Assembly: GCF_037975245.1 (NCBI RefSeq) | Contig: NC_092576.1 | Span: forward strand, 21,575,611 to 21,639,610 | Length of the DNA: 64,000 nt | Direction of reading: 5' to 3' | DNA from: Apostichopus japonicus | Lineage: Eukaryota; Echinodermata; Holothuroidea; Aspidochirotida; Stichopodidae | Shown here: positions 1,406-56,039 of the stretch, one piece after another | Layout of the letters: every line of letters begins with the position of its first letter | How positions within the stretch are numbered: the stretch's first letter is position 1 | Position numbers and translations under genes: made by a program | Notes under the pieces: generated by a model | Databases searched by the model: none | The model's input: only the letters and a program-made list of their open reading frames with translations | Told to the model about the DNA's origin: nothing

Positions 1406-2373
1406 TGTAACGCCCTGGGTGTTCGGGATGCATGTACTCCGATTCGAACACGCCCACGGCTACTCAGAATATGTTTCCCCGAGTTTTAAGAATAATTGAC
1501 TATGCGATATGTTGCCCATTCACTCAGCATTCCACTTACTTTTGTTCTATTTTGCAAGTCTTTCTCGCTCTCCCCGTCGTCTGCCATCACCAGCATTCCA
1601 GGCATTACCTCTTCTATCTCCTGTTAAGCGTTTATCTATTTTACTATAGCTTGCTCTCTATACCTTGTTTAATTAAGACGGTGTTGCTTGTTATGTTTAT
1701 TTGTGTTTTGGAAGACTTGGTTTATTTCGTTGATGTTCGGGCAGAGAACTGGAGACCAGCAGTGAGCAGCACGGCTATTGCAGTTTAGTATTATTTTAAA
1801 GGTAAGGTTGTTTTATTTATTTTAGAGAGCGGGTCCAGGAGTGAGGGCTGACTACGGGCGCCATTTCCTATTGTATTTTATAACTGACAATTTCCCGTCC
1901 TGGTTGGCTTCGTTGCATGTAATTTAAACAGGTGGTAAGGTAAAATTAGGGTTCTCTCAGAGGTATTGTAATAGCTAATCTAGGCACATTGAGCAGTATT
2001 TGTCCAGCCTGTCGTTGGCGCCCCGTGTTGGGTATTCACTCTCGTAATTCTTAAGAGCCGTGCTGCCCACGCCCTGGTACGTAGTTTATTAGTTATTTAG
2101 TTCAATTGAATTTTTGCTCGTTCATGTTTGAGTACGGCAGAAAGACACTGCCTTGTTTTTGTCAAGTGTATGTTTTCAAGTGGATTAATCAAATCGGTGA
2201 ATGAGACCCACCCAGTTCTCGTAAACTATATTCTTCCCTATATTTGTGTATTGGTTTAATAAGCCCTGCTGGCATTATTCTTCGCCTCCCCCTTTCCCCT
2301 TCCCTGACATCAGTTGGCCTCAAGCTGCCTGATAACCCACGCTGCCGCTCTGCCTGGGTACAGGGGCGTTACA
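1406..2373 (+). mobile_element. Solo LTR-like element (968 bp)
   Basis: The element begins TGTAACGCCC (1406-1415) and ends GGGCGTTACA (2364-2373). These are inverted copies with the TG...CA termini typical of retrotransposon LTRs. The 4-bp word ATAC flanks both sides (1402-1405 and 2374-2377), as expected of a target duplication. A TGGCGCCCCG word at 2016-2025 resembles a primer-binding site but lies inside the unit. No gag or pol sequence is attached, so a solo LTR is the simplest reading; a short TIR element is the alternative. A 118-codon open frame inside (1432-1788) resembles nothing I know. The left edge of the giant inverted repeat falls inside this element, at 1504. Confidence 0.65.
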
Positions 2374-2475
2374 ATACGGAATAACTTATATATGGGAAGT
2401 TGTAATCAATTATTCGGTGTAAAGTTTTTGTCACACACGGCGCCCCATAGTATTGACATCAGTAGTAATACGTGA

Positions 2476-2631
2476 CAATTTCGATGTCAACTTTTACGTG
2501 TCATTTTTTGTACGTGTCAATTTACATGTCAATTTTTAAATGTCAAGTTAGATGTCAAATTTAGATGTCAATTTTTAGATGTCAATTTAGATGTCAAATT
2601 TAGATGTCAATTTTTACGTGACAATTTAGAT
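2476..2631. repeat. Short degenerate tandem repeat, ATGTCAAtTT type
   Basis: About ten copies of a 12-17 nt motif built on TTAGATGTCAATTT, with variants ACGTGTCA and ACATGTCA. They sit just inside the LTR-like element. The same block, complemented, occurs at 52,917-53,039. Function unknown; probably a slipped-strand expansion. Confidence 0.75.
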
Positions 2632-3178
2632 GAATACACATGAATTGAGTACATGTCAAATTAGTAATAATACATTTCAAGTTTGTAATTCATGCCACTG
2701 TGGTTCTTTTGGCGTTCCATATACGACAGATATCAGTCAATCTTCTCTATGGTTGACTGACTTTGATGAAATAACCAAAGAAGAAAACATTTGGCGCCAA
2801 AATTTAGGTTGTGTCAAACTCAGAGCAGCGTGGTTTGCATGAAGACGTTGATGTGCTGACTTTTGGACTGCGTGTGCCGATATAGTGTGAATGTGAGTAA
2901 AATATTCCAATTGAAATATTTATTGGTAGGCCATGCATACGTCAAAGTGATAACTTCAAACCCAAGCGTGGAAATATCTGCTTAGCACTTTCTTAAACTT
3001 ACTTAATGATTAAAAGAAACCTGTTGTTTTTGGTACACGTGTTTCTTCAAGAAATAGTTGTTAACATTTATTTAACGACTCAACAGTGTACTACTATTAA
3101 ATTTCCTTATTGACAAATTCAGTATCCGTACTACGTAAAAAAATCAGGGAGGTGTTTCTGTCTGGATAGTGTTTACAC

Positions 3179-3245
3179 GGGTCCAAAAATCGGGAACCGG
3201 GTACCCGAGGGCCGTTACCCGTCGAGTATCCGGGTACCCGGGAAA
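3179..3245. repeat. GGGTACCC palindrome cluster, left arm
   Basis: GC-rich island in AT-rich surroundings with repeated GGGTACCCG and CCGGGTACCCGG words, each self-complementary. It is mirrored at about 52,303-52,370. A related stretch occurs at 50,553-50,606, and a shorter relative (ACCGGGTATTATCGCG) at about 4141-4156. It looks like part of a dispersed repeat family; I cannot name it. Confidence 0.6.
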
Positions 3246-3770
3246 AATTTGTTTACCCTCGTGTATCACGATTTTCAAGAAATTACATATTGGATGCTGT
3301 AATAAATGCATTATATTCTCTACTGACAATGTTTTCATGTTCAAATACGTAGGTGTAAGATAAGGAATAAAACCTCCCTCAATAATTTGTATTTGCTTCT
3401 GTTTCTTTCATTAACTTGTTAATAAATTAATTATTTAATTATAATTAGCATTACTACTAACATCGCACTGCCGCCGCTGCTTATGCTAGCTCGTGCACGT
3501 CTATTGGATCAAACCATATAAATATCCAATTTAGCTCTTAAACAGTTTTAAATACTACTACTCTCTATTATGCAGGCCCAAGGTTCGCATTAGCCGCGAG
3601 ATTTCGCGATTCGGGCAATTTGATCGCATTTGGAATAAACGATTAGTAAAAAGCCACTTGCGATTACTACTTTTTAGTTATCCCGTCTATAATCCATAAA
3701 CATCGCGTAAAATTCCTTGTCAGCCTTTCCTTCTTTGAAATAAACGAATGAATAAATAATAATTTCTTCC

Positions 3771-4110
3771 ACATGGTAGCCTAACACCACACTAAGTCAA
3801 TGAGAAACTAGCTAAGCCTAACCATCTGTTTATTTGCTGGAGTTGTGACGCAGTTGTAAGACATCCATGGAATACTTTCGTCATTGCTGTTACGTTCGAC
3901 CACATGGTTGCCTAACACCACACTAAGTCAATGGGGGTAGTCTAGCCTAGCCATCCGTTTATTAGCTGAAATTGTGACGCAGTTATAAGATATCTATGGA
4001 AAGCTTTCGTTATTGCTGTTATCTTCGAACACATGGTAGCCTAACAACACACTAAGTCAATGGGAAATCAGCCTAACCATCGGTTTGCAATTTTTTTTAA
4101 ACAATTAAAC
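3771..4110. repeat. 130-bp tandem repeat, left arm (about 3 units)
   Basis: Units start near 3771, 3901 and 4031 with CACATGGTAGCCTAACACC and share CACTAAGTCAATG, a GTGACGCAGTT block and a CTTTCGT-ATTGCTGTTA block. The right arm holds many more units of the same family (50,640-51,790), so the family expanded or contracted after the arms separated. Confidence 0.8.
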
Positions 4111-4759
4111 TTTGCGTATGATTCGGGTAATAAATTAGGAACCGGGTATTATCGCGTCGAGTGGGCCCCAGTCTTCATGCTACTAGTAGTAAACCATTTA
4201 ATCGTACATGCTATATGCCTGCCTTGTTTTCAGCTCCTTGCAGCAGTCGGTTGGGAACGTTAGGCCTAAGGAAGATACCATTTCTCTGGCTAGGATGAGA
4301 TGTAGCCAGCTAGGCTACAACACTTTTAAAAACAAGCAAATGTAAACATGTCTCTTATTCCTATTATTAATGAGCCAGGATTAAATGTGTATGCATGATA
4401 TCCATCTGCACGTACAGCTCGTTATACAAATACTTTTGGCATGGGCAACAAATAGTGCAAAATGTAGCGCTGATGTCAGGCAATATCAGTTGGTGCTTTG
4501 TACACCTTAATGGCTAAGTTTATGAGAAATTATTTGAAGGAACTCTGCCTAAACTTAAAGCCTTTTCTAAATTGCTGTAAATGTAACTTTACACCGATCA
4601 TACCAACCTGCTGGAGAACAACAATAAAGGTTGTGTTCCATGTCTGTTTGTTTCATGCTTGTTTTATGTTTGCTTGTTCGATGTTTTCTTTCTTTAAATT
4701 GTGTCGTACCAAATCCAACAACCTTCTTTTTTTCTTCTTATAATAGGTGTAAGACAAAT

Positions 4760-4810
4760 ATGTCTACTAAAACAACGGTGTTGTTAGTGAAGGACGATGA
4801 CAAAGGTTGA
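4760..4810 (+). other. Edge copy of the 16-codon micro-ORF of satellite A
   Basis: This is the most divergent unit of the array. It reads MSTKTTVLLVKDDDKG then TGA. The length, the KDDD core, the stop and the following AATAAA (4827-4832) are kept although many codons differ from the consensus. The mirror unit in the right arm (near 49,511) has lost the ATG. Whether it is ever translated is unknown. Confidence 0.4.
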
Positions 4811-5039
4811 TTGTGAAGGAAAAAAATAAAGTTGGTGTATATTCCATGTTTGATATTTGTTTGTTCGTTGTTTGTAGTTTTGATTAATGTACTTTTGTTG
4901 ATGTATTTGTTGTTTCATGTATGTTTTTTTATGGGTTTTTTATGATTTTTCTATCTTGTTTGTACGATGTTTGTCTGTTTGACACCAAATCCAAACATCT
5001 CTTTCCTTTTTTCTCGTTTATAGAAGGTGTAAGAAAAAG

Positions 5040-5090
5040 ATGGCTACTGCAACAATGAAACAGTTGGTGAAAGACGATGACCAAGGTTGA
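5040..5090 (+). other. Typical 16-codon micro-ORF of satellite A
   Basis: It reads MATATMKQLVKDDDQG then TGA, preceded by a pyrimidine-rich stretch ending in AG and followed by AATAAA (5106-5111). The frame stays open upstream to the AG as RCKTK. Variants elsewhere are MATATEKQLVKDDDQG, MTTATEKQLAKDDDQG, MASAREEQLVKDDDQG and, in the right arm, MTSATEKQLVKEDDQG. I do not recognise the peptide. It could be the C-terminus of a protein whose last exon seeded the satellite, or a chance frame. Confidence 0.4.
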
Positions 5091-6999
5091 TTGTGAAGGA
5101 AAACAATAAAGGTGGTGTATGTTCCATGTTTGTTTGTTCGTTGTTTGTATTTTTGTTTGATGTACATTTGTTTGATGTACATTTGTTTGATGTACATTTG
5201 TTTGATGTATGTTTCTTTGTTATGATGAATGTTTCTTTGATGTATGTTGACAATGTATGTCACTTTGATACCAAATCCAAACATGATTTCTTTTTCTTGT
5301 TCCTTTAATTTTCTTATTTTATAGAAGGTTTTAGACAAAGATTGCTACTGCAACAATGAAACAGTTGGTGAAAGACGATGACCAAGGTTGATTGTGAAGG
5401 AAAACAATAAAGGTGGTGTTTTTTCCATGTTTGTTTGTTCGTTGTTTGGATTTTTGTTTGATGTATATTTGTTCGATGTATATTTTTTGGATGTTTATTT
5501 GTTTGATGTATGTTTCTTTGTTATGGTGAATGTTTCTTTGATGTATGTTTGTAAAATGTAAGTCTGTTTGATACCAAATCGAAACATGATTTCTTTTTTT
5601 TCTTATTTTATAGGTGTAAGACAAAGATGGCTACTGCAACAGAGAAACAGTTGGTGAAAGACGATGACCAAGGTTGATTGTGAAGGAAAACAATAAAGGT
5701 GGTGTATGTTTCATGTTTGTTTGTTCGTTGTTTGTAATTTTGTTTGATGTATATTTGTTTGACGTTTATTTTTTTGAATGTTTATTTCTTATGATGAATG
5801 TTTCTTTGATGTATGTTTGTACAATTTATGTCTGTTTGATACCAAATCGAAACATGTTTTTTTTCTTCTTTTTTCTTTCTTCTTTTCTTTTTCTTTTTCT
5901 TATTTTATAGAAGGTTTTAGACAAAGATGACTACTGCAACAAAGAAACAGTTGGTGAAAGACGATGATCAAGGTTGATTGTGAAGGAAAACAATAAAGGT
6001 GGTGTATGTTCCAAGTTTGTTCGTTTGTTGTTTGTATTTTTGTTTGATGTATATTTGTTTGATGTATATTTTTGGGATGTTTATTTGTTTGATGTATGTT
6101 TCTTTGTTATGATGAATGTATCTTTGATGTATGTTTGTAAAATGTATGTCTGTTTGATACCAAATCGAAACATCATTTCTTTTCTTTTTTTCTTATTTTA
6201 TAGGTGTAAGAAAAACATGACTACTGCAACAGAGAAACAGTTGGCGAAAGACGATGACCAAGGTTGATTGTGAAGGAAAACAACAAAGGTGGTGTATGTT
6301 CCATGTTTGTTTGTTAGTTGTTTGTATTTTTGTTTGATGTATATTTGTTTGATGTATATTCTTTGGATGTTTATTTGTTTGATGTATGTTTGTACAATGT
6401 ATGTCTGTTTGATAGCAAATCAAAACATGATTTCTTTTTTTTCACTTTTCTTATTTTATAGAAGGTGTTAGACAAAGATGGCTTCTGCAAGAGAGGAACA
6501 GTTGGTGAAAGACGATGACCAAGGTTGATTTTGAAGGAAAACAATAAAGGTGGTGTATGATCCATGTTTGTTTGTTTGTTGTTTGTATTTTTGTTTGATG
6601 TATATTTGTTTGATGTATATTTTTTGGATGTTTATTTGTTTGATGTATGTTTGTACAATGTATGTCTGTTTGATACCAAATCAAAACATGATTTCCTTTT
6701 TCACTTTTCTTATTTTATAGAAGGTGTAAGACAAAGATGGCTACTGCAACAATGAAACAGTTGGTGAAAGACGATGACCAAGGTTGATTTTGAAGGAAAA
6801 CAATAAAGGTGGTGTATGTTCCATGTTTGTTCGTTCGTTGTTTGTATTTTTCTTTGATGTATATTTGTTTGATGTATATTTTTGGATGTTTATTTGTTTG
6901 ATGTATGTTTGTACAATGTATGTCTGTTTGATACCAAATCAAAACATGATTTCTTTTTTTCACTTTTCTTATTTTATAGAAGGTGTTAGACAAAGATGG

Positions 7000-9813
7000 C
7001 TACTGCAACAATGAAACAGTTGGTGAAAGACGATGACCAAGGTTGATTTTGAAGGAAAACAATAAAGGTGGTGTATGTTCCATGTTTGTTCGTTCGTTGT
7101 TTGTATTTTTCTTTGATGTATATTTGTTTGATGTATATTTTTTGGATGTTTATTTGTTTGATGTATGTTTCTTTGTTATGGTGAATGTTTCTTTGATGTA
7201 TGTTTGTAAAATGTATGTCTGTTTGATACCAAATCAAAACATGATTTCTTTTTTTCACTTTTCTTATTTTATAGAAGGTGTAAGACAAAGATGGCTACTG
7301 CAACAGAGGAACAGTTGGTGAAAGACGATGACCAAGGTTGATTGTGAAGGAAAACAATAAAGGTGGTGTATGTTCCATGTTGTTTGTTCGTTGTTTGTAT
7401 TTTTCTTTGATGTATATTTGTTTGATGTATATTTTTGGGATGTTTATTTGTTTGATGTATGTTTCTTTGTTATGATGAATGTATCTTTGATGTATGTTTG
7501 TAAAATGTATGTCTGTTTGATACCAAATCGAAACATCATTTCTTTTCTTTTTTTCTTATTTTATAGGTGTCAAAAAACATGACTACTGCAACAGAGAAAC
7601 AGTTGGCGAAAGACGATGACCAAGGTTGATTGTGAAGGAAAACAACAAAGGTGGTGTATGTTCCATGTTTGTTTGTTAGTTGTTTGTATTTTTGTTTGAT
7701 GTATATTTTTTGGATGTTTATTTGTTTGATGTATATTTTTTGGATGTTTATTTGTTTGATGTATGTTTGTAAAATGTATGTCTGTTTGATACCAAATCAA
7801 AACATGATTTCTTTTTTTCACTTTTCTTATTTTATAGAAGGTGTAAGACAAAGATGGCTACTGCAACAGAGGAACAGTTGGTGAAAGACGATGACCAAGG
7901 TTGATTGTGAAGGAAAACAATAAAGGTGGTGTATGTTCCATGTTGTTTGTTCGTTGTTTGTATTTTTCTTTGATGTATATTTGTTTGATGTATATTTTTT
8001 GGATGTTTATTTGTTTGATGTATGTTTCTTTGTTATGATGAATGTATCTTTGATGTATGTTTGTAAAATGTATGTCTGTTTGATACCAAATCGAAACATC
8101 ATTTCTTTTCTTTTTTTCTTATTTTATAGGTGTCAAAAAACATGACTACTGCAACAGAGAAACAGTTGGCGAAAGACGATGACCAAGGTTGATTGTGAAG
8201 GAAAACAACAAAGGTGGTGTATGTTCCATGTTTGTTTGTTAGTTGTTTGTATTTTTGTTTGATGTATATTTTTTGGATGTTTATTTGTTTGATGTATATT
8301 TTTTGGATGTTTATTTGTTTGATGTATGTTTGTAAAATGTATGTCTGTTTGATACCAAATCAAAACATGATTTCTTTTTTTTTTCACTTTTCTTATTTTA
8401 TAGAAGGTGTTAGGACAAAGATGGCTACTGCAAGAGAGGAACAGTTGGTGAAAGACGATGACCAAGGTTGATTTTGAAGGAAAACAACAAAGGTGGTGTC
8501 TGTTCCATGTTTGTTTGTTAGTTGTTTGTATTTTTGTTTGATGTATATTTTTTGGATGTTTATTTGTTTGATGTATATTTTTTGGATGTTTATTTGTTTG
8601 ATGTATGTTTGTAAAATGTATGTCTGTTTGATACCAAATCAAAACATGATTTCTTTTTTTTTCACTTTTCTTATTTTATAGAAGGTGTTAGGACAAAGAT
8701 GGCTACTGCAAGAGAGGAACAGTTGGTGAAAGACGATGACCAAGGTTGATTTTGAAGGAAAACAACAAAGGTGGTGTCTGTTCCATGTTTGTTTGTTAGT
8801 TGTTTGTATTTTTGTTTGATGTATATTTGTTTGATGAATATTTTTTGGATGTTTATTTGTTTGATGTATGTTTGTACAATGTATGTCTGTTTGATACCAA
8901 ATCAAAACATGATTTCTTTTTTTCACTTTTCTTATTTTATAGAAGGTGTAAGACAAAGATGGCTACTGCAACAATGAAACAGTTGGTGAAAGACGATGAC
9001 CAAGGTTGATTTTGAAGGAAAACAATAAAGGTGGTGTATGTTCCATGTTTGTTCGTTCGTTGTTTGTATTTTTCTTTGATGTATATTTGTTTGATGTATA
9101 TTTTTTGGATGTTTATTTGTTTGATGTATGTTTCTTTGTTATGGTGAATGTTTCTTTGATGTATGTTTGTAAAATGTATGTCTGTTTGATACCAAATCAA
9201 AACATGATTTCTTTTTTTCACTTTTCTTATTTTATAGAAGGTGTAAGACAAAGATGGCTACTGCAACAGAGGAACAGTTGGTGAAAGACGATGACCAAGG
9301 TTGATTGTGAAGGAAAACAATAAAGGTGGTGTATGTTCCATGTTGTTTGTTCGTTGTTTGTATTTTTCTTTGATGTATATTTGTTTGATGTATATTTTTG
9401 GGATGTTTATTTGTTTGATGTATGTTTCTTTGTTATGATGAATGTATCTTTGATGTATGTTTGTAAAATGTATGTCTGTTTGATACCAAATCGAAACATC
9501 ATTTCTTTTCTTTTTTTCTTATTTTATAGGTGTCAAAAAACATGACTACTGCAACAGAGAAACAGTTGGCGAAAGACGATGACCAAGGTTGATTGTGAAG
9601 GAAAACAACAAAGGTGGTGTATGTTCCATGTTTGTTTGTTAGTTGTTTGTATTTTTGTTTGATGTATATTTTTTGGATGTTTATTTGTTTGATGTATATT
9701 TTTTGGATGTTTATTTGTTTGATGTATGTTTGTAAAATGTATGTCTGTTTGATACCAAATCAAAACATGATTTCTTTTTTTTTTCACTTTTCTTATTTTA
9801 TAGAAGGTGTTAG
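7000..9813 (+). repeat. 1,963-bp higher-order duplication in satellite A (left)
   Basis: The block 7043-7850 recurs almost unchanged at 9006-9813, an offset of 1,963 bp or about seven basic units. A smaller offset of 563 bp (two units) relates 7370-7582 to 7933-8145. The identical open frames in the paired blocks show the copying was recent relative to divergence between neighbouring units. Confidence 0.8.
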
Positions 9814-12032
9814 GACAAAGATGGCTACTGCAAGAGAGGAACAGTTGGTGAAAGACGATGACCAAGGTTGATTTTGAAGGAAAACAACAAAGGTGGTGTC
9901 TGTTCCATGTTTGTTTGTTAGTTGTTTGTATTTTTGTTTGATGTATGTTTGTACAATGTATGTCTGTTTGATACCAAATCAAAACATGATTTCTTTTTTT
10001 CACTTTTCTTATTTTATAGAAGGTGTAAGACAAAGATGGCTACTGCAACAGAGAAACAGTTGGTGAAAGACGATGACCAAGGTTGATTTTGAAGGAAAAC
10101 AATGAAGGTGGTGTATGATCCATGTTTGTTTGTTCGTTGTTTGTATTTTTGTTTGATGTATATTTGTTTGATGTATATTTTTGGGATGTTTATTTGTTTG
10201 ATGTATGTTTCTTTGTTATTGTGAATGTTTCTTTGATGTATCTTTGTAAAATGTATGTCTGTTTGATACCAAATCGAAACAATATTTAGATGTACACACA
10301 TTAAGCCAACAATGCCCTCACACTAAGCCGATGCTGCTGACATACACGAAGTCAACCCTGCTGACACACACTAAGCCAACGCTGCTGACACACACTAAGC
10401 CAACGCCTGCAATACACTAAACAAACGTCTGCCGACACACACTAAACCAACGCTTGTGAAACAAACTAAGCCAACGCTGCTAACACACTAAACCAACGCT
10501 GCTGACACAAACTAAGCCAACGCTGCTGACACACTAAGGCAACCCTGAACACACAAACTAAGCCAAACGCTGCGTACAAACACTAAGCCAACGCATGTGA
10601 CACACAAAGCAAACACTGCTGACACACACTAAGGCAACACTGCTGACACACACAAAGCCAACACAGCACACAAACACTACGCCAACGCTGCTGACACTCA
10701 CTGTTTACTGTGGTAAAACAACGCTGCTGAAACAAAATAAGCACACACACACTAAGCTCAACGCTGCACACTTAACCAACGCCTGCCGACACACATTAAG
10801 CCAACGCTGCTGGCACACACTAAGCCAACGCTGCTGACACACTAAGCCAACGCTGCTGACACACTAAGCCAAACACTGCACACAAACACTAAGCCAATGC
10901 TGCACACACTGATACCGCTGCTGACACACACACAAAGCCAACGCTGCTGACACACACTAAGCCAACGCTGCCAACAAACACTAAGCCAACGCTGCTGACA
11001 CACACTAAATTAAACACTGCTTACAAACAGTAAGCCAACCCTGCACACACACACTAAGCCAACGCTGCACACAAACACTTAGTCAACGCTGCTGACACAC
11101 TAAGCCAACACTGCCCACAAACACTAAGCCAACACACATACACACACTTAGCCAAACGCTGCACTCACACACTAAGCTCAACGCTGCACACTTAACCAAC
11201 GCCTGCCGACACACACAACGCTGCTGACACACATTAAACCAACGCTGCTGACACACACAAAGCCAACGCTGCTGACACACACTAAGCCAACACTGCACAC
11301 ACCAAAAAGGAAACAATGCTGACACACACTAAGACAATGCTGCTGACACACACTAACCCAACTTAAACACACTTAGCCAACGCTGCTGACACACACTAAG
11401 CCAATGCTGCTGACACACACTTAGCCAACGCTAACTGACACACACTAAGCCAACGCTGCTGACACACACACTAAGACAATGCTGCGGACACATACTAAGC
11501 CAACGCTGCTTATACACACTAAGCCAACGCTGCTGACACACAGTAAATTAAACACTGCTTACAAACAGTAAGCCAACCCTGCGCACACACACACTAAGCC
11601 AATGCTGCGGACACATACTAAGCCAACGCTGCTTACACACACTAAGCCAACGCTGCTGACACACACTAAACCAACGCTGCTGACACACTTAGCCAACGCT
11701 GCTGACACACTAAGCCAAACACTGCACACAAACACTAAGCCAATGCTGCACACACTGACACCGCTGCTGCCACACACTAAGCCAACACTGCCTACAAACA
11801 CTAAGCCAACACACATTCACACACTAAGGTAAACGCTGAACTCACACACCAAGCTCAACGCTGCACACTTAACCAACGCCTGCCGACACACATTAAGCCA
11901 ACGCTGCTGGCACACACTAAGCCAACGCTGCTGACACACTTAGCCAACGCTGCTGACACACTAAGCCAAACACTGCACACAAACACTAACCCAATGCTGC
12001 ACACACTGATACCGCTGCTGACACACACTAAG

Positions 12033-14690
12033 TCAATGCTGCTGACACACACTAAGCCAACGCTGCCAACAAACACTAAGCCAACGCTGCTGACACACAG
12101 TAAATAAAACACTGCTTACAAACAGTAAGCCAACCCTGCACACACACACTAAGCCAATGCTGCGGACACATACTAAGCCAACGCATGTGACACACAAAGC
12201 AAACACTGCTGACACACACTAAGGCAACACTGCTGACACACACAAAGCCAACACAGCACACAAACACTACGCCAACGCTGCTGACACTCACTGTTTACTG
12301 TGGTAGACCAACGCTGCTGAAACAAAATAAGCACACACAAACTAAGCCAAACGCTGCACACACACAGACTAAACCAACGCTGCTGGCACACTAACCAAAC
12401 GCTGATGACACACACTGAGCCAACGCTGCTGACACACACTTAGCCAACGCTAACTGACACACACTAAGCCAACGCTGCTGACACACACACTAAGCCAATG
12501 CTGCGGACACATACTAAGCCAACACTGCTTACACACACTAAGCCAACATTGCTGACACACACTAAACCAACGCTGCTGACACACTTAGCCAACGCTGCTG
12601 ACACACTAAGCCAAACACTGCACACAAACACTAAGCCAATGCTGCACACTGACACCGCTGCTGCCACACACTAAGCCAACACTGCCTACAAACACTAAGC
12701 CAACACACATTCACACACTAAGGCAAACGCTGAACTCACACACTAAGCTCAACGCTGCACACTTAACCAACGCCTGCCGACACACATTAAGCCAACGCTG
12801 CTGGCACACACTAAGCCAACGCTGCTGACACACTAAGCCAACGCTGCTGACACACTAAGCCAAACACTGCACACAAACACTAAGCCAATGCTGCACACAC
12901 TACCGCTGCTGACACACACTAAGTCAATGCTGCTGACACACACTAAGCCAACGCTGCCAACAAACACTAAGCCAACGCTGCTGACACACACTAAATTAAA
13001 CACTGCTTACAAACAGTAAGCCAACCCTGCACACACACACTAAGCCAACGCTGCACACAAACACTTAGTCAACGCTGCTGACACACTAAGCCAACACTGC
13101 CCACAAACACTAAGCCAACACACATACACACACTTAGCCAAACGCTGCACTCACACACTAAGCTCAACGCTGCACACTTAACCAACGCCTGCCGACACAC
13201 ACAACGCTGCTGACACACATTAAGCCAACGCTGCTGACACACACAAAGCCAACGCTGCTGACACACACTAAGCCAACGCTGCCAACAAACACTAAGCCAA
13301 CGCTGCTGACACACACTAAATTAAACACTGCTTACAAACAGTAAGCCAACCCTGCACACACACACACTAAGCCAACGCTGCACACAAACACTTAGTCAAC
13401 GCTGCTGGCACACTAAGCCAACACTGCCCACAAACAATAAGCCAACACACATACACACACTTAGCCAAACGCTGCACTCACACACTAAGCTCAACGCTGC
13501 ACACTTAACCAACGCCTGCCGACACACACAACGCTGCTGACACACATTAAGCCAACGCTGCTGACACACACAAAGCCAACGCTGCTGACACACACTAAGC
13601 CAACACTGCACACACCAAAAAGGAAACAATGCTGACACACACTAAGACAATGCTGCTGACACACACTAACCCAACTTAAACACACTTAGCCAACGCTGCT
13701 GACACACACTAAGCCAATGCTGGTGGCACACACTTAGCCAACGCTGCTGACACACACTAAGCCAATGCTGGTGACACACACTTAGCCAACGCTAACTGAC
13801 ACACACTAAGCCAACGCTGCTGACACACACACTAAGACAATGCTGCGGACACATACTAAGCCAACGCTGCTTATACACACTAAGCCAACGCTGCTGACAC
13901 ACACTAAACCAACGCTGCTGACACACTTAGCCAACGCTGCTGACACACTAAGCCAAACACTGCACACAAACACTAGGCCAATGCTGCACACACTAACACC
14001 GCTGCTGACACACACTAAGTCAATGCTGCTGACACACACTAAGCCAACGCTGCCAACAAACACTAAGCCAACGCTGCTGACACACAGTAAATTAAACACT
14101 GCTTACAAACAGTAAGCCAACCCTGCACACACACACTAAGCCAATGCTGCGGACACATACTAAGCCAACGCATGTGACACACAAAGCAAACACTGCTGAC
14201 ACACACTAAGGCAACACTGCTGACACACACAAAGCCAACACAGCACACAAACACTACGCCAACGCTGCTGACACTCACTGTTTACTGTGGTAAACCAACG
14301 CTGCTGAAACAAAATAAGCACACACAAACTAAGCCAAACGCTGCACACACACAGACTAAACCAACGCTGCTGGCACACTAACCAAACGCTGATGACACAC
14401 ACTGAGCCAACGCTGCTGACACACACTTAGCCAACGCTAACTGACACACACTAAGCCAACGCTGCTGACACACACACTAAGCCAATGCTGCGGACACATA
14501 CTAAGCCAACACTGCTTACACACACTAAGCCAACATTGCTGACACACACTAAACCAACGCTGCTGACACACTTAGCCAACGCTGCTGACACACTAAGCCA
14601 AACACTGCACACAAACACTAAGCCAATGCTGCACACTGACACCGCTGCTGTCACACACTAAGCCAACACTGCCTACAAACACTAAGCCAA
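12033..14690. repeat. 1,987-bp higher-order repeat in minisatellite B (left)
   Basis: Blocks at 12,076-12,291, 12,173-12,439 and 12,464-12,667 recur at 14,063-14,278, 14,160-14,426 and 14,451-14,654 with a constant offset of 1,987 bp and near-identical translations. This shows long-block duplication on top of the 24-bp periodicity. Confidence 0.75.
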
Positions 14691-41702: not shown

Positions 41703-44700
41703 ATGAAACATACACCACCTTTATTGTTTTCCTTCAAAATCAACCTTGGTCATCTTCTTTCACCAACTGTTTCTCTGTTGCAGAAGTCATGTTTTTCTTA
41801 CACCTATAAAATAAGAAAAAAAAAGAAATGGTGTTTCTTTTTGGTATCAAACAGACATACATTTTACAAACATACATCAAAGAAACATTCATCAGAACAA
41901 AGAAACATACATCAAACAAATAAACATCCAAAAATATATACATCAAACAAATATACATCAAACAAAAATACAAACAACGAACAAAAAAACATGGAACATA
42001 CACCCCCTTTATTGTTTTCCTTCACAATCAACCTTGATCATCGTCTTTCACCAACTGTTTCTCTGTTGCAGTAGTCATGTTTTTCTTACACCTATAAAAT
42101 AAGAAAAACAAAAGAAATGGTGTTTCTTTTTGGTATCAAACAGACATACATTTTACAAACATACATCAAAGAAACATTCACCATAACAAAGAAACATACA
42201 TCAAACAAATAAACATCAAAAAAATATACATCAAACAAATATACCTCAAACAAAAATACAAACAACGAACAAACAAACATGGACCATACACCACCTTTAT
42301 TGTTTTCCTTCACAATCAACCTTGGTCATCTTCTTTCACCAACTGTTTCTCTGTTGCAGTAGCCATCTTTGTCTTACACCTTCTATAAAGTAAGAAAAGT
42401 GAAAAAAAAAAGAAATCATGTTTTGATTTGGTATCAAACAGACATACATTGTACAAACATACATCAAAGAAACATTTATCATAACAAAGAAACATACATC
42501 AAACAAATAAACATCCAAAAAATATACATCATACAAATATACATCAAACAAAAATACAAACAACGAACAAAAAAACATGGAACATGCACCACCTTCATTG
42601 TTTTCCTTCACAATCAACCTTGGTCATCGTCTTTCACCAACTGTTTCTCTGTTGCAGTAGCCATTTTTGTCTTACACCTTCTATAAAGTAAGAAAAGTGA
42701 AAAAAAAAAGAAATCATGTTTTGACTTGGTATCAAACAGACATACATTGTACAAACATACATCAAAGAAACATTCATCATAACAAAGAAACATACATCAA
42801 ACAAATAAACATCCAAAAAATATACATCATACAAATATACATCAAACAAAAATACAAATAACAAACAAACAAACATGGAACATACACCACCTTTATTGTT
42901 TTCCTTCACAATCAACCTTGGTCATCGTCTTTCACCAACTGTTTCTCTGTTGCAGTAGTCATGTTTTTCTTACACCTATAAAATAAGAAAAAAAAGAAAT
43001 GGTGTTTCTTTTTGGTATCAAACAGACATACATTTTACAAACATACATCAAAGAAACATTCATCATAACAAAGAAACATACATCAAACAAATAAACATCC
43101 AAAAAATATACATCAAACAAATATACATCAAACAAAAATACAAACAACGAACAAAAAAACATGAAACATACACCACCTTTATTGTTTTCCTTCAAAATCA
43201 ACCTTGGTCATCGTCTTTCACCAACTGTTTCTCTGTTGCAGTAGTCATGTTTTTCTTACACCTATGAAATAAGAAAAAAAAAGAAATGGTGTTTCATTTT
43301 GGTATTAAACAGACATACATTTTACAAACATACATCAAAGAAACATTCACCATAACAAAGAAACATACATCAAACAAAAAAACATCCAAAAAATATACAT
43401 CAAACAAAAATACAAACAACGAACAAAAAAACATGAAACATACACCACCTTTATTGTTTTCCTTCAAAATCAACCTTGGTCATCGTCTTTCACCAACTGT
43501 TTCTCTGTTGCAGTAGTCATGTTTTTCTTACACCTATGAAATAAGAAAAAAAAAGAAATGGTGTTTCATTTTGGTATTAAACAGACATACATTTTACAAA
43601 CATACATCAAAGAAACATTCACCATAACAAAGAAACATACATCAAACAAATAAACATCCAAAAAATATACATCAAACAAAAATACAAACAACGAACAAAA
43701 AAACATGAAACATACACCACCTTTATTGTTTTCCTTCAAAATCAACCTTGGTCATCTTCTTTCACCAACTGTTTCTCTGTTGCAGAAGTCATGTTTTTCT
43801 TACACCTATAAAATAAGAAAAAAAAAGAAATGGTGTTTCTTTTTGGTATCAAACAGACATACATTTTACAAACATACATCAAAGAAACATTCATCATAAC
43901 AAATAAACATCCAAAAAATATACATCAAACAAATATACATCAAACAAAAATACAAACAACGAACAAAAAAACATGAAACATACACCACCTTTATTGTTTT
44001 CCTTCAAAATCAACCTTGGTCATCTTCTTTCACCAACTGTTTCTCTGTTGCAGAAGTCATGTTTTTCTTACACCTATAAAATAAGAAAAAAAAAAGAAAT
44101 GGTGTTTCTTTTTGGTATCAAACAGACATACATTTTACAAACATACATCAAAGAAACATTCATCATAACAAAGAAACATACATCAAACAAATAAACATCC
44201 AAAAAATATACATCAAACAAATATACATCAAACAAAAATACAAACAACGAACAAAAAAACATGAAACATACACCACCTTTATTGTTTTCCTTCACAATCA
44301 ACCTTGGTCATCTTCTTTCACCAACTGTTTCTCTGTTGCAGAAGTCATGTTTTTCTTACACCTATAAAATAAGAAAAAAAAAGAAATGGTGTTTCTTTTT
44401 GGTATCAAACAGACATACATTTTACAAACATACATCAAAGAAACATTCATCATAACAAAGAAACATACATCAAACAAATATACATCAAACAAAAATACAA
44501 ACAACGAACAAAAAAACATGAAACATACACCACCTTTATTGTTTTCCTTCAAAATCAACCTTGGTCATCTTCTTTCACCAACTGTTTCTCTGTTGCAGAA
44601 GTCATGTTTTTCTTACACCTATAAAATAAGAAAAAAAAAAGAAATGGTGTTTCTTTTTGGTATCAAACAGACATACATTTTACAAACATACATCAAAGAA

Positions 44701-46973
44701 ACATTCATCATAACAAAGAAACATACATCAAACAAATAAACATCCAAAAAATATACATCAAACAAATATACATCAAACAAAAATACAAACAACGAACAAA
44801 AAAACATGAAACATACACCACCTTTATTGTTTTCCTTCAAAATCAACCTTGGTCATCTTCTTTCACCAACTGTTTCTCTGTTGCAGAAGTCATGTTTTTC
44901 TTACACCTATAAAATAAGAAAAAAAAAGAAATGGTGTTTCTTTTTGGTATCAAACAGACATACATTTTACAAACATACATCAAAGAAACATTCATCAGAA
45001 CAAAGAAACATACATCAAACAAATAAACATCCAAAAATATATACATCAAACAAATATACATCAAACAAAAATACAAACAACGAACAAAAAAACATGGAAC
45101 ATACACCCCCTTTATTGTTTTCCTTCACAATCAACCTTGATCATCGTCTTTCACCAACTGTTTCTCTGTTGCAGTAGCCATCTTTGTCTTACACCTTCTA
45201 TAAAGTAAGAAAAGTGAAAAAAAAAAAGAAATCATGTTTTGATTTGGTATCAAACAGACATACATTGTACAAACATACATCAAAGAAACATTCATCATAA
45301 CAAAGAAACATACATCAAACAAATAAACATCCAAAAAATATACATCATACAAATATACATCAAACAAAAATACAAACAACAAACGAACAAACTTGGAACA
45401 TACACCACCTTTATTGTTTTCCTTCACAATCACCCTTGGTCATCGTCTTTCACCAACTGTTTCTCTGTTGCAGTAGTCATGTTTTTCTTACACCTATAAA
45501 ATAAGAAAAACAAAAGAAATGGTGTTTCTTTTTGGTATCAAACAGACATACATTTTACAAACATACATCAAAGAAACATTCACCATAACAAAGAAACATA
45601 CATCAAACAAATAAACATCAAAAAAATATACATCAAACAAATATACCTCAAACAAAAATACAAACAACGAACAAACAAACATGGACCATACACCACCTTT
45701 ATTGTTTTCCTTCACAATCAACCTTGGTCATCTTCTTTCACCAACTGTTTCTCTGTTGCAGTAGCCATCTTTGTCTTACACCTTCTATAAAGTAAGAAAA
45801 GTGAAAAAAAAAAGAAATCATGTTTTGATTTGGTATCAAACAGACATACATTGTACAAACATACATCAAAGAAACATTTATCATAACAAAGAAACATACA
45901 TCAAACAAATAAACATCCAAAAAATATACATCATACAAATATACATCAAACAAAAATACAAACAACGAACAAAAAAACATGGAACATGCACCACCTTTAT
46001 TGTTTTCCTTCACAATCAACCTTGGTCATCGTCTTTCACCAACTGTTTCTCTGTTGCAGTAGCCATCTTTGTCTTACACCTTCTATAAAGTAAGAAAAGT
46101 GAAAAAAAAAAAGAAATCATGTTTTGATTTGGTATCAAACAGACATACATTGTACAAACATACATCAAAGAAACATTCATCATAACAAAGAAACATACAT
46201 CAAACAAATAAACATCCAAAAAATATACATCATACAAATATACATCAAACAAAAATACAAACAACAAACGAACAAACTTGGAACATACACCACCTTTATT
46301 GTTTTCCTTCACAATCACCCTTGGTCATCGTCTTTCACCAACTGTTTCTCTGTTGCAGTAGTCATGTTTTTCTTACACCTATAAAATAAGAAAAACAAAA
46401 GAAATGGTGTTTCTTTTTGGTATCAAACAGACATACATTTTACAAACATACATCAAAGAAACATTCACCATAACAAAGAAACATACATCAAACAAATAAA
46501 CATCAAAAAAATATACATCAAACAAATATACCTCAAACAAAAATACAAACAACGAACAAACAAACATGGACCATACACCACCTTTATTGTTTTCCTTCAC
46601 AATCAACCTTGGTCATCTTCTTTCACCAACTGTTTCTCTGTTGCAGTAGCCATCTTTGTCTTACACCTTCTATAAAGTAAGAAAAGTGAAAAAAAAAAGA
46701 AATCATGTTTTGATTTGGTATCAAACAGACATACATTGTACAAACATACATCAAAGAAACATTTATCATAACAAAGAAACATACATCAAACAAATAAACA
46801 TCCAAAAAATATACATCATACAAATATACATCAAACAAAAATACAAACAACGAACAAAAAAACATGGAACATGCACCACCTTTATTGTTTTCCTTCACAA
46901 TCAACCTTGGTCATCGTCTTTCACCAACTGTTTCTCTGTTGCAGTAGCCATCTTTGTCTTACACCTTCTATAA
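41703..46973 (-). repeat. Higher-order blocks in satellite A (right)
   Basis: The block 41,703-42,074 recurs at 44,806-45,177 (offset 3,103). A three-unit block of 885 bp is tandemly duplicated: 45,131-45,433 matches 46,016-46,318, and 45,494-46,088 matches 46,379-46,973. The matching translations are the same or nearly so. This accounts for part of the greater length of the right array. Confidence 0.78.
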
Positions 46974-48737
46974 AGTAAGAAAAGTGAAAAAAAAAAGAAA
47001 TCATGTTTTGACTTGGTATCAAACAGACATACATTGTACAAACATACATCAAAGAAACATTCATCATAACAAAGAAACATACATCAAACAAATAAACATC
47101 CAAAAATATATACATCAAACAAATATACATCAAACAAAAATACAAACAACGAACAAAAAAACATGGAACATACACCCACTTTATTGTTTTCCTTCACAAT
47201 CAACCTTGATCATCGTCTTTCACCAACTGTTTCTCTGTTGCAGTAGCCATCTTTGTCTTACACCTTCTATAAAGTAAGAAAAGTGAAAAAAAAAAAGAAA
47301 TCATGTTTTGATTTGGTATCAAACAGACATACATTGTACAAACATACATCAAAGAAACATTTATCATAACAAAGAAACATACATCAAACAAATAAACATT
47401 CAAAAAATATACATCATACAAATATACATCAAACAAAAATACAAACAACGAACAAAAAAACATGGAACATGCACCACCTTTATTGTTTTCCTTCACAATC
47501 AACCTTGGTCATCGTCTTTCACCAACTGTTTCTCTGTTGCAGTAGTCATGTTTTTCTTACACCTATTAAATAAGAAAAAAAAGAAATGGTGTTTCTTTTT
47601 GGTATCAAACAGACATACATTTTACAAACATACATCAAAGAAACATTCACCATAACAAAGAAACATACATCAAACAAATAAACATCAAAAAAATATACAT
47701 CAAAGAAATATACCTCAAACAAAAATACAAACAACGAACAAACAAACATGGAACATACACCACCTTTATTGTTTTCCTTCACAATCAACCTTGGTCATCG
47801 TCTTTCACCAACTGTTTCTCTGTTGCAGTAGCCATCTTTGTCTTACACCTTCTATAAAGTAAGAAAAGTGAAAAAAAAAAGGAATCATGTTTTGATTTGG
47901 TATCAAACAGACATACATTGTACAAACATACATCAAAGAAACATTCATCATAACAAAGAAACATACATCAAACAAATAAACATCCCAAAAATATACATCA
48001 AACAAAAATACATCAAACAAAAATACAAACAACGAACAAACAAACATGGAACATACACCACCTTTATTGTTTTCCTTCAAAATCAACCTTGGTCATCTTC
48101 TTTCACCAACTGTTTCTCTGTTGCGGTAGCCATCTTTGTCTTACACCTTCTATAAAGTAAGAAAAGTGAAAAAAGAAAGAAATCGTGTTTCTTTTTGGTA
48201 TCAAACAGACATACATTGTACAAACATACATCAAAGAAACATTCCTCATAACAAAGAAACATATATCAAACAAATAAACATCCCAAAAATATACATCAAA
48301 CAAAAATACAAACAACGAACAAACAAACATGAAACATACACCACCTTTATTGTTTTCCTTCACAATCAACCTTGGTCATCATCTTTCACCAACTGTTTCT
48401 CTGTTGCAGTAGCCATCTTTGTCTTACACCTTCTATAAAATAAGAAAAGTGAAAAAAGAAAGAAATCGTGTTTCTTTTTGGTATCAAACAGACATACATT
48501 GTACAAACATACATCAAAGAAACATTCCTCATAACAAAGAAACATATATCAAACAAATAAACATCCCAAAAATATACATCAAACAAAAATACAAACAACG
48601 AACAAACAAACATGAAACATACACCACCTTTATTGTTTTCCTTCACAATCAACCTTGGTCACCGTCTTTCACCAACTGTTTCTTTGTTGCAGTTGCCATC
48701 TTTGTCTTACACCTATAAAATAAGAAAAAAAAAGAAA

Positions 48738-49107
48738 TCATGTTTCGATTTGGTATCAAACAGACATACATTTTACAAACATACATCAAAGAAACATTCA
48801 CCATAACAAAGAAACATACATCAAACAAATAAACATCCAAAAAATATACATCAAACAAATATCATGTTTCGATTTGGTATCAAACAGACATACATTTTAC
48901 AAACATACATCAAAGAAACATTCATCATAACAAAGAAACATACATCAAACAAATAAACATCCAAAAAATATACATCAAACAAATATCATGTTTCGATTTG
49001 GTATCAAACAGACATACATTTTACAAACATACATCAAAGAAACATTCATCATAACAAAGAAACATACATCAAACAAATAAACATCCAAAAAATATACATC
49101 AAACAAA
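48738..49107 (-). repeat. Truncated 124-bp sub-array at the outer edge of right satellite A
   Basis: The word ATCATGTTTCGATTTGGTAT begins at 48,738, 48,861 and 48,985, spaced 123-124 bp. These units keep the GATACCAAATC block and the 16-bp sub-repeats but lack the micro-ORF and AATAAA part. This explains the 535-bp gap between micro-ORFs at 48,697 and 49,232. No such sub-array is seen in the left arm. Confidence 0.8.
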
Positions 49108-50105
49108 TATACATCAAACAAAAATACAAACAACGAACAAACAAATATGGAACATACACCACCTTTATTGTTTTCCTTCAAATTCAACCTTTGTCATCGT
49201 CTTTCACCGACTGTTTCTTTGTTGTAGTAGTCATCTTTTTCTTACACCTTCTATAAACGAGAAAAAAGGAAAGAGATGTTTGGATTTGGTGTCAAACAGA
49301 CAAACATCGTTCAAACAAGATCGAAAAATCATAAAAAACACATAAAAAAACATACATGAAACAAAAAATACATCAACAAAAGTACATTAATCAAAACTAC
49401 AAACAACGAACAAACAAATATCAAACATGGAATATACACCAACTTTATTGTTTTCCTTCACAATCAACCTTTGTCATCGTCCTTCACTAACAACACCGTT
49501 GTTTTAGTAGATTTATTTGTCTTACACCTATTATAAGAAGAAAAAAAGAAGGTTGTTGGATTTGGTATGACACAATTTAAAAAAAGAAAACATCGAACAA
49601 GCAAACATAAAACAAACATGAAACAAACAGACATGGAACACAACCTTTATTGTTGTTCTCCAGCAGGTTGGTATGATCGGTGTAAAGTTACATTTACAGC
49701 AATTTAGAAAAGGCTTTAAGTTTAGGCGGAGTTCCTTCAAATAATTTCTCATAAACTTAGCCATTAAGGTGTACAAAGCACCAACTGATATTGCCTGACA
49801 TCAGCGCTACATTTTGCACTATTTGTTGCCCATGCCAAAAGTATTTGTATAACGAGCTGTACGTGCAGATGGAAATCATGCATACACATTTAATCCTGGC
49901 TCATTAATAATAGGAATAAGAGACATGTTTACATTTGCTTGTTTTTAAAAGTGTTGTAGCCTAGCTGGCTACATCTCATCCTAGCCAGAGAAATGGTATC
50001 TTCCTTAGGCCTAACGTTCCCAACCGACTTCTGCAAGGAGCTGAAAACAACGCAGGCATATAGCATGTACGATTAAATGGTTTACTACTAGTAGCATGAA
50101 GACTG

Positions 50106-50732
50106 CTTGCCATGGAGGGGTCATTTTGGAGAGTAACTAACTGTATTTTTTCGTGAAATTGGCTCTTGCTGCAGGTTGTCATGGTGAAATCGTGTATTTC
50201 TTAGGGGTGTCCGAACTTGGCAATACTGATCATACTAGTTTTCATTCTACGATTAGGCCTAACGAACTGTATGTAATGTTGCTGCTGTATAAAGTCTGAC
50301 ATTAAGTCGAAGTTCCAAGTTGACATGATAAATATCGACCCCTCCCAATAACAAAGTTGGTGTGATTGCCCTCAGAAATGTTTCAAAGGATAATTTCTTA
50401 TCAATATGGGGAGTTTAAGCTACAGCAGTGCAAAGTTTTGGACGGTATTTATGGTTAAATTAAGTGTAGAAAAAACATATCCCAGCATTTGTGCAAAGCA
50501 TGCGTTACAAACTGTTACCTCCAATGTGTCCCGGATGTTGAAACACTTTGCACGGGTTATCCGGGTACCCGGGTACCCGCCTGACGCGATACTACCCGGT
50601 TCCTATTTTATTACCCGAATCCTAAGCAACGTGTGATTTAAAAAAAAAAGCAAACCGACGGTTAGGCAGATTTCCCATTGACTTAGTGTGGTGTTAGGCT
50701 ACAATGTAGTCGAAGATAACAGCAATAACGAA
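50106..50732. other. Right-arm-specific insert (627 bp)
   Basis: The left arm reads continuously through the word mirrored as GAAGACTGGGGCCCACTCG (rejoining around 4,165-4,180). In the right arm GAAGACTG ends at 50,105 and GGGGCCCGCTCG resumes at 50,733. The first about 450 bp are not found elsewhere in the window. The last about 170 bp, starting with GGGTACCCG words, resemble the following 130-bp repeat region, so the insert is partly a tandem duplication. No target duplication was evident. Confidence 0.65.
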
Positions 50733-51790
50733 GGGGCCCGCTCGACGCGATAATACCCGAATCATACGCAAAGTGTGATTGTTTAAAAAAAAATTGCAAA
50801 CCGATGGTTAGGCTGATTTCCCATTGACTTAGTGTGTTGTTAGGCTACCATGTGTTCGAAGATAACAGCAATAACGAAAGCTTTCCATAGATATCTTATA
50901 ACTGCGTCACAATTTCAGCTAATAAACAGATGGCTAGGCTAGACTTCCCCTATTGACTTAATGTGGTGTTAGGCAACCATGTGGTCGAACGTAACAGCAA
51001 TGACGAAAGTATTCCATGGATGTCTTACAACTGCGTCACAACTCCAGCAAATAAACAGATGGTTAGGCTTAGCTAGATTTCTTATTGACTTAGTGTGGTG
51101 TTAGGCTACCATGTGGAAAAAATTATTATTTATTCATTAGTCATTATTTATTCATTCACCCGAATCATACGCAAAATGTGATTGTTTAAAAAAAATTGCA
51201 AACCGATGGTTAGGCTGATTTCCCATTGACTTAGTGTGTTGTTAGGCTACCATGTGTTCGAAGATAACAGCAATAACGAAAGCTTTCCATAGATATCTTA
51301 TAACTGCGTCACAATTTCAGCTAATAAACAGATGGCTAGATTGACTTAGTGTGGTGGTAGGCAACCATGTGGTCGAACGTAACAGTAATAACGAAAGTAT
51401 TCCATGGATGTCTTACAACTGCGTCACAACTCCAGCAAATAAACAGATGGTTAGGCTTAGCTAGATTTCTTATTGACTTAGTGTGGTGTTAGGCTACCAT
51501 GTGGAAAAAATTATTATTTATTCAATAATAATAATTATTTAAATATAAATATTTTTTTTTTATATTTATATATAAAAATATTTAATAAACAGATGGCTAG
51601 GCTAGACTTCCCCTATTGACTTAGTGTGGTGTTAGGCAACCATGTGGTCGAACGTAACAGCAATAACGAAAGTATTCCATGGATGTCTTACAACTGCGTC
51701 ACAACTCCAGCAAATAAACAGATGGTTAGGCTTAGCTAGATTTCTCATTGACTTAGTGTGGTGTTAGGCTACCATGTGGAAAAAACTATT
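50640..51790. repeat. 130-bp tandem repeat, right arm (about 8-9 units)
   Basis: Inverted relative to 3,771-4,110. Units share CATTGACTTAGTGTGGTGTT, AGGCTACCATGTGG, AACAGCAATAACGAAAG and AACTGCGTCACAA. Boundaries fall near 50,700, 50,850, 50,980, 51,110, 51,250, 51,370, 51,500, 51,640 and 51,770. Two units are interrupted by AT-rich insertions (near 51,120-51,160 and 51,510-51,585). Confidence 0.75.
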
Positions 51791-52916
51791 ATTTATTCAT
51801 TCGTTTATTTCAAAGAAGGAAAGGCTGACAAGGAATTTTACGCGATGTTTATGGATTATAGACGGGATAACTAAAAAATAGTAATCGCAAGTGGCTTTTT
51901 ACTAATCGTTTATTCCAAATGCGATCAAATTGCCCGAATCGCGCAATCTCGCGGCTAATGCGAACCCTGGGCCTGCATAATAGAGAGAAGTAGTATTTAA
52001 AACTGTTTAAGAGCTAACTTGGATATTTATATGGTTTGATCCAATAGACGTGCACGAGCTAGCATAAGCAGCGGCGGCAGTGCGATGTTAGTAGTAATGC
52101 TAATTATAATTAAATAATTAATTTATTAACAAGTTCATGAAAGAAACAGAAGCAAATACAAATTACTGAGGGAGGTTTTATACCTTATCTTACACCTACG
52201 TATTTGAACATGAAAACATTGTCAGTAGAGAATATAATGCATTTATTACAGCATCCAATATGTAATTTCTTGAAAATCGTGATACACGAGGGTAAACAAA
52301 TTTTCCCGGGTACCCGGATACCCGACGGGTAACGGCCCTCGGGTACCCGGTTCCCGATTTTTGGACCCGTGTAAACACTATTGACAGACAGAAACACCTC
52401 CCTGATTTTTTTACGTAGTACGGATACTGAATTTGTCAATAAGGAAATTTAATACTAGTTCACTGTTGAGTCGTTAAATAAATGTTAACAACTATTTCTT
52501 GAAGAAACACGTGTACAAAAAACAACAGGTTTCTTTTAGTCATTAAGTAAGTTTAAGAAAGTGCTAAGCAGATATTTCCACGCTTGGGTTTGAAGTTATC
52601 ACTTTGACGTATACATGGCCTACCAATAAATATTTCAATTGGAATATTTTACTCACATTCACACTATATCGGCACACGCAGTCCAAAAGTCAGCACATCA
52701 ACGTCTTCATGCAAACCACGCTGCTCTGAGTCTGATACAACCTAAATTTTGGCGCCAAATGTTTTCTTCTTTGGTTATTCATCAAAGTCAGTCAACCATA
52801 GAGAAGATTGACTGATATCTGTCGTATATGGAACGCCAAAAGAACCACAGTGGCATGAATTACAAACTTGAAATGTATTATTACTAATTTTGACATGTAC
52901 TCAATTCATGTGTATT

Positions 52917-53039
52917 CATCTAAATTGTCACGTAAAAATTGACATCTAAATTTGACATCTAAATTGACATTTAAAAATTGACATCTAAATTGACACGTAC
53001 AAAAAATGACACGTAAAAGTTGACATCTAAATTGTCACG
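52917..53039. repeat. ATGTCAA short repeats, right arm
   Basis: Complement of the left block at 2,476-2,631, built on AAATTGACATCTAAATTTG. It is slightly shorter than the left block (about 123 against 156 bp), so a few motif copies differ between the arms. Confidence 0.72.
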
Positions 53040-53136
53040 TATTACTACTGATGTTAATACTATGGGGCGCCGTGTGTGACAAAAACTTGACACCGAATAA
53101 TTGATTACAACTTCCCATATATAAGTTATTCCGTAT

Positions 53137-54003
53137 TGTAACGCCCCTGTACCCCGGCAGAGCGGCAGCGTGGGTTATCAGGCAGCTTGAGGCCAACTGA
53201 TGTCAGGGCAGGGGAAAGGGGGAGGCGAAGAATAATGCTAGCAGGGCTTATTAAACCAATACACAAATATAGGGAAGAATATAGTTTACGAGAACTGGGT
53301 GGGTCTCATTCACCGATTTGATTAATTTACTTGAAAACATACACTTGACAAAAACAAGGCAGTGTCTTTCTGCCGTACTCAAACATGAACGAGCAAAAAA
53401 TTCAATTGAACTAAATAACTACGTACCAGGGCGTGGGCAGCACGACTCTTAAGAATTACGAGAGTGAATACCCAACACGGGGCGCCAACGGCAGACTGGA
53501 CAAATACTGCTCAATGTGCCTAGATTAGCTATTACATTACCTCCTGGGAGAACCCTAATTTTACCTTGCCACCGGTGTATATAACATGCAACGAAGCCAA
53601 CCAGGACGGGAAGTTGTCAGTTATAAAATACAATAGGAAATGGCGCCCGTAGTCAGCCCTCACTCCTGGACCCGCTCCCTAAAATAAATAAAACAACCTT
53701 ACCTTTAAAATAATACTAAACTGCAATAGCCGTGCTGCTCACTGCTGGTCTCCAGTTCTCTGCCCGAACATCAACGAAATAAAGCAAGTCTTCCAAAACA
53801 CAAAAAACATAACAAACAACACCGTCTTAATTAAACAAGGTATAGAGAGCAAGCTATAGTAAAATAGATAAACGCTTAACAGGAGATAAAAGAGCGAATC
53901 CCTGGAATGCTACATGGTGATGGCAGACGACGGGGAGAGCGAGAGAGACTTGCATAATACAACAAAAGTAAGTGGAATGCTGAGTGAATGGGCAACATAT
54001 CGC
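53137..54003 (-). mobile_element. Truncated mirror copy of the LTR-like element
   Basis: It starts TGTAACGCCCCTG at 53,137, with GTAT (complement of the ATAC flank) at 53,133-53,136. It follows the left element closely up to CATATCGC at 53,996-54,003 and then changes to unrelated sequence (GTGTACAAAC). The last 98 bp of the element, including its outer terminus and target repeat, are missing, which fixes the right breakpoint of the palindrome. Confidence 0.78.
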
Positions 54004-56028: not shown

Positions 56029-56039
56029 TCAGAGGTAAA

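Follow-up and report, generated by a model that had tools for sequence, protein, structure and literature searches.

A 64,000-nucleotide stretch of the Apostichopus japonicus assembly (C16:21,575,611-21,639,610, hereafter the window), near the middle of the 46.0-Mb contig C16, carries two satellites and their non-satellite outer arms in inverted order. Reading from left to right, the assembled sequence runs U-satA-satB | satB'-satA'-U' over 52.5 kb, where U denotes the non-satellite arm, and the orientation of satB switches at ~22,080. The inverted arrangement is real within the assembled sequence, which is without any N across the window. Our favoured explanation, to which we give a probability of about 65%, is a real local inverted duplication generated by a strand switch within satB, after which the satellites turned over independently and the right arm was truncated. 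Whether the locus should be called a single-locus macro-dyad, with two satellites nested in mirror order between mirrored non-satellite arms, arm-specific higher-order repeats and arms ~98% alike, we regard as an even call. The parts are as follows (window positions, boundaries accurate to a few bases).

1-1503: left flank
1504-4616, plus strand: left non-satellite arm (U), including the dispersed repeat at 3167-4169 with its 129-bp tandem tract
3167-4169, plus strand: dispersed repeat of ~1 kb inside the left arm; right-arm counterpart at ~50105-51779 with extra 129-bp copies
4617-10,283, plus strand: left satA array, monomers of ~260-300 bp
10284-10345, plus strand: left satA/satB junction, with a distinctive first-monomer variant common to the right junction (compared by eye)
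10,294-22,078, plus strand: left satB array, forward, 24-bp unit, organized in part as a 1987-bp higher-order repeat
19803-20993, plus strand: mirror-register island, left partner of 23448-24228
22075-22085, no strand: satB strand switch (CACTAAGTG) at ~22,080
22,082-40,548, minus strand: right satB array, reverse
22449-22490, plus strand: short reversed satB piece (~45 bp) within the right array
23448-24228, minus strand: mirror-register island, right partner of 19803-20993
28083-40220, minus strand: 4741-bp higher-order repeat, ~2.6 copies
40510-40560, minus strand: right satA/satB junction
40,558-49,657, minus strand: right satA array
49,658-54,003, minus strand: right non-satellite arm (U')
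54,005-54,198, plus strand: 5' long terminal repeat (LTR) of a degenerate copia-type element, bounding the right arm
54199-58770, plus strand: remainder of this degenerate element, interrupted by an insert at 56374-58641

Of 3520 aligned columns between the two non-satellite arms, 75 are mismatched, a substitution divergence of 2.1%, in agreement with the ~2% estimated in the initial annotation. The mismatches are evenly spread, without excess patchiness in a test of low power (dispersion p 0.25, 14 windows), and most indels reflect additional tandem copies of the 129-bp type on the right, where this tract occupies 1.7 kb as against ~0.4 kb in the left. The arms had also been described as unique. 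This does not hold for 3167-4169, further full-length copies of which (94-97% identical) lie on several contigs; outside this segment, the only arm matches among the best 40 of 1889 first-look candidates scored in the 671.6-Mb, 35-contig assembly were the two arms themselves. The dispersed repeat occupies mirrored places in both arms and was therefore present before the duplication. This repeat is ~1.0-1.2 kb long, its other copies begin TAGTGTTTACACGGG, and 129-bp-type tandem copies stand at its 3' end.

Mirror homology extends into satA. When 51 satA monomers (20 left, 31 right) were compared, three of the first five on the arm side of the left array had their nearest relative in the right arm, in mirrored order: L4823/R49451 (2.6% divergence), L5101/R49172 (4.6%) and L5689/R48637 (2.6%). 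Interior monomers, on the other hand, mostly lie 0-1.3% (maximum 3.9%) from their nearest neighbour in the same array and 2.0-6.5% from the nearest monomer in the opposite one. At the inner edges, the first satB monomers of both satA/satB junctions carry a common unusual variant. The arrays are of unequal length, with ~5.7 kb (left) versus 9.1 kb (right) of satA and 11.8 versus 18.5 kb of satB.

The same satellite, satB, forms two opposed multi-kb subarrays around one inversion point. Neither subarray changes strand internally except for a single ~45-bp reversal near 22,450-22,490. Higher-order repeats differ by arm, with a period of 1987 bp in part of the left array versus 4741 bp in the right, the latter at 99.96% identity over 7433 compared positions. 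There are 24 inverted exact satB matches of at least 60 bp, and the four longest (148, 116, 108 and 88 bp), at distances of 1.2-2.3 kb from the switch, depart from their mirror positions by no more than 400 bp. None of 2000 rotations of the right array reached the summed length of these four mirror-placed matches, and 33 of 2000 gave a single match of 148 bp or longer within the band. With homology in the arms, the arm-side satA monomers, the junctions and this central island, the earlier view of one mirrored structure, not of coincident satellites, stands.

The centre itself behaves differently. The initial annotation placed a mirror centre at 22,080; the strand switch is indeed there, but a local mirror axis is not, as the two innermost 400-bp left windows gave mirror scores of 141 and 185 versus medians of 175 and 201 elsewhere. 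Comparisons centred on the switch at 50, 100, 150, 200, 300 and 500 bp were matched or beaten by 10.5%, 17.7%, 45%, 83%, 40% and 96% of 400 random pairs, respectively. The switch reads CACTAAGTG, where short microhomology is likely by chance given the satB units, and the surrounding centre is non-mirrored.

Several observations weigh against a real duplication at this locus. Over the ~1.1-1.4 kb flanking the switch to left and right, mirror similarity does not rise above background; the block is therefore neither the classic short-spacer palindrome that had been proposed nor an intact palindrome, and such a centre would be unexpected for a recent fold-back unless turnover came later. The strand switch at 22,080 is read from the assembled sequence alone, and a repeat as near-perfect as the 4741-bp one can also be the sign of an array that assembles with difficulty. 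Among the first five arm-side satA monomers on the left, two (L5404 and L5989) are without a close right-arm partner, and the satA/satB edges are, by eye, ~10% apart, more than the 2.1% of the arms. Copies of 1-3166 elsewhere were judged from the best 40 of 1889 candidates, which falls short of a full test of uniqueness.

One alternative is an assembly misjoin, in which two true inverted U-satA-satB copies, lying apart or on two haplotypes, would have been wrongly joined at 22,080. We consider this unlikely, though it is the strongest competitor. The junction falls within a tandem array and shows no mirror similarity at 22,080 itself, the neighbouring 4741-bp repeat is 99.96% identical, and we take a divergence of 2.1% to fit the heterozygosity of some invertebrates. 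However, the window contains no N and holds the mirror-register island, with its 0 of 2000 rotations for summed length. The longest exact inverted match between forward and reversed satB is 148 bp, so an overlap error at the switch should be hard to make. A fold-back read would be expected to leave near-perfect arms beside the switch; the sequence there is unmirrored, which makes such a read unlikely.

A haplotype U-turn should bring allelic flanks with it, and no allelic alignment was found between the 31.1 kb on the left and the 79.4 kb on the right. The two flanks share 57 scattered alignments, the longest 1273 bp at 92%, and none of at least 200 bp exceeds 92.1% identity. Twenty-nine of them cluster in a single block that contains ~400-bp tandem copies; of all 57, 50 are inverted versus 7 direct, and the 10 kb adjoining the left arm has six flank matches, none longer than 242 bp. 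With non-allelic flanks and no long high-identity inverted repeat at the switch, the U-turn that the initial annotation wished to see excluded becomes unlikely. One inverted 1.27-kb match at 92% pairs C16:21561787-21563052 with 21678177-21676918, with ~400-bp tandem copies in the right flank.

A second alternative is a merger, after insertion or duplication in opposite orientation, of two independent copies of a dispersed U-satA-satB repeat. Searched with up to 3 mismatches allowed, at which more diverged satB would be missed, a 37-bp satB pattern matched 105 times forward and 174 times reverse in the whole assembly and likewise 105 and 174 times in the window. The satB places listed, all forward, lie in the window, and for the rest we rely on the equal counts. 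Because genome-wide and window counts are equal, satB of this kind appears confined to the C16 locus at the sensitivity of the pattern. Exact 30- and 34-base satellite patterns had no match in viral_contigs.

The corresponding search with satA gave at least 124 matches with the best 38 of 40 candidates scored, so that its counts are lower bounds. Among the matches listed, the strong ones were all at the C16 locus; the best relative elsewhere (109 bits, ~74% over 217 bases) was on C10, weaker ones were on C11, C20, C2, C6 and C15, and relatives outside C16 occupied one strand only per contig. Distant arrays of the satA family, all one-directional, lie at C10:11274694-11292297 and at C11:8799329-8843034 and 5608933-5617285. 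On C10, U-like sequence precedes the satA-like array on the same strand, resembling window positions 4259-4378 (90% over 120 bp) and 4461-4580 (81% over 130), and no satB-like array was found in the 6 kb that follow. Since the C10 array runs one way, has a U-like lead-in on the same strand and has no satB-like array in the 6 kb after it, a one-directional U-satA unit is likely the ancestral state, and satB and the large inversion appear, as far as searched, peculiar to C16.

Merger of two dispersed copies is accordingly improbable, less so only than the transposon discussed below: satA-like arrays with a U-like lead-in do exist elsewhere, as on C10, but the satB pattern matches are accounted for by the C16 locus, the 6 kb past the C10 array are free of a satB-like array, and the central mirror-register island is present. 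Several satA-like matches on C10 recur at a spacing of 8593 bp, which suggests tandem duplication. About 0.8 kb past the same array is a small inverted pair of a 22-bp minisatellite (185 bp, 91%), with copies at 1079-1258 and 2002-2184 of the C10 stretch L036 and a sequence unrelated to satB.

The right end of the mirrored block is set by a retrotransposon. The right arm stops at 54,003 and a copia-type LTR, bounded by TG...CA, begins at 54,005 and runs to 54,198. An LTR search with 17 of 17 candidates scored gave 22 matches; apart from the element itself, six begin at query base 1-3, five have their last base at 195 and two begin at 196. Because this LTR bounds the right arm, 54,003 looks like a secondary end, and its earlier assignment as a natural end of a palindrome is set aside. 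At the other side, nothing indicates that the duplicated tract ended at 1504; the continuation of the left arm did not reappear in the 79 kb to the right. The copia-type element is degenerate, with matches to Retrotran_gag_2 (E 5e-4, below the family cut-off) and SH3_retrovirus (E 5e-12). The LTR search gave no match to a 3' LTR nearby, the 3' half of the element was not found, and no reverse-transcriptase YVDD motif was seen up to window position 64,000.

LTR-only matches also occur on other contigs. The copia remnant is interrupted at 56,374-58,641 by an insert with 16-bp inverted ends (CAGGGGTCGAAATTTA) and a 5-bp duplication, AGTGG, which we take to be hAT-like. Further along, a short hairpin of 75 bp at 60209-60283 is self-inverted at 85%.

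A giant foldback-type transposon, with long inverted repeats holding tandem motifs, is the least probable alternative: its combination of an outer domain, tandem repeats and inverted halves would recall Tetris as described in PMC4079207, but the only direct repeat of at least 5 bp near the ends is AGTTTT, at 20-30 bp from the junctions, the copia LTR determines the right end, and the assembly has no second satB place at the pattern's sensitivity. Neither a target-site duplication at the ends nor other copies were found, and we rejected a foldback or giant terminal-repeat element, as the initial annotation had done.

A real local inverted duplication, the explanation we favour, could have proceeded as follows. 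An ancestral one-directional U-satA-satB tract would have been copied in reverse by fold-back or template switching that turned inside satB, giving U-satA-satB|satB'-satA'-U'. The satellites of each arm would then have evolved alone, with unequal exchange and amplification installing the arm-specific higher-order repeats of 1987 and 4741 bp and ancestral sequence surviving in the non-satellite arms and in some arm-side monomers. Turnover of the array interiors would have erased the register around the centre. The copia element would have inserted in the right arm, and its 3' half and anything beyond would later have been lost. With register lost at the centre, cruciform formation should be unlikely, which may explain why the structure persists, presumably without a selected function.

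Six open reading frames (ORFs) of at least 80 amino acids in 1-5200 and four further open arm stretches gave no Pfam match at E<=0.1 except Astro_1A, whose E value of 0.066 is at chance level for ten ORFs and open stretches in or near the left arm. A possible arm exon at 4232-4345 was rejected, as it has no Pfam match and the same frame is closed in its C10 counterpart. A coding role of satB was likewise rejected, the longest stop-free runs in the six frames of each array being 87-111 codons. Rfam gave nothing at the gathering score, and no tRNA was found. Most satA monomers resemble a terminal exon, with a pyrimidine tract before TAG in 51 of 53 and AATAAA in 44 of 53, and 49 of 53 hold a 16-codon mini-ORF (consensus-like M..AT.KQLVK.DDQG-stop). 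Because many mini-ORF variants differ in amino acids, these exon-like features probably reflect shared ancestry, not coding.

If the macro-dyad is genuine, it offers a natural experiment on the separate evolution of two inverted copies of one satellite tract. Provided that the switch is real, it supplies paired satellite tracts of the same age in one genome, with the non-satellite arms as an internal clock, so that the rate of satellite turnover becomes measurable relative to ordinary sequence. It would also show how loss of register at the centre may allow a large inverted satellite to be tolerated. Satellite macro-dyads would then probably extend beyond Tribolium, the sole genus in which, according to the authors of PMC13081366, they are documented.

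In Tribolium, macro-dyads are opposed multi-kb satellite arrays of up to 75 kb, with two satellites intermingled and with thousands of inversion sites, conserved sites among them, in putative (peri)centromeric regions of megabase size; they were verified in raw HiFi reads (PMC13081366). In our literature search, the term occurred besides the Tribolium work only in the reference list of another paper. The C16 locus resembles the arrays described there in combining two satellites, in its opposed multi-kb subarrays of unequal length and in the degenerate units at the inversion point. It differs in being one locus, known from an assembly alone, with two satellites nested symmetrically and mirrored non-satellite arms. 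Recurrent inversion sites over many arrays, a trait of Tribolium, were not seen here, where satB matches lie at one locus and satA relatives run in one direction per contig. We therefore group the C16 locus with the Tribolium arrays by type of arrangement but do not count it as belonging to the Tribolium system.

Other inverted structures share parts of this organization. Human fold-back inverted duplications, as portrayed in PMC3907307, are recent events with a short non-mirrored spacer of normal-copy DNA; the C16 locus is like them in its inverted copies around a short non-mirrored centre, in that an inverted copy may end at foreign sequence and possibly in a switch on the scale of microhomology, which the satB units make likely by chance. 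Unlike them, its centre is satellite and old enough for array turnover. Y-chromosome palindromes, in the account of PMC6790999, similarly have large inverted arms and a small central gap, but many of them contain genes and their similarity is maintained by gene conversion, whereas the ten ORFs and open stretches in or near the left C16 arm have no Pfam match better than E 0.066 and the mismatches between the arms show no patchiness, at the low power noted above. Tetris foldback transposons also have inverted halves with tandem repeats; by the description in PMC4079207, their copies are flanked by 8-10-bp target-site duplications and occur several times in the genome. Neither feature was found for the C16 locus.

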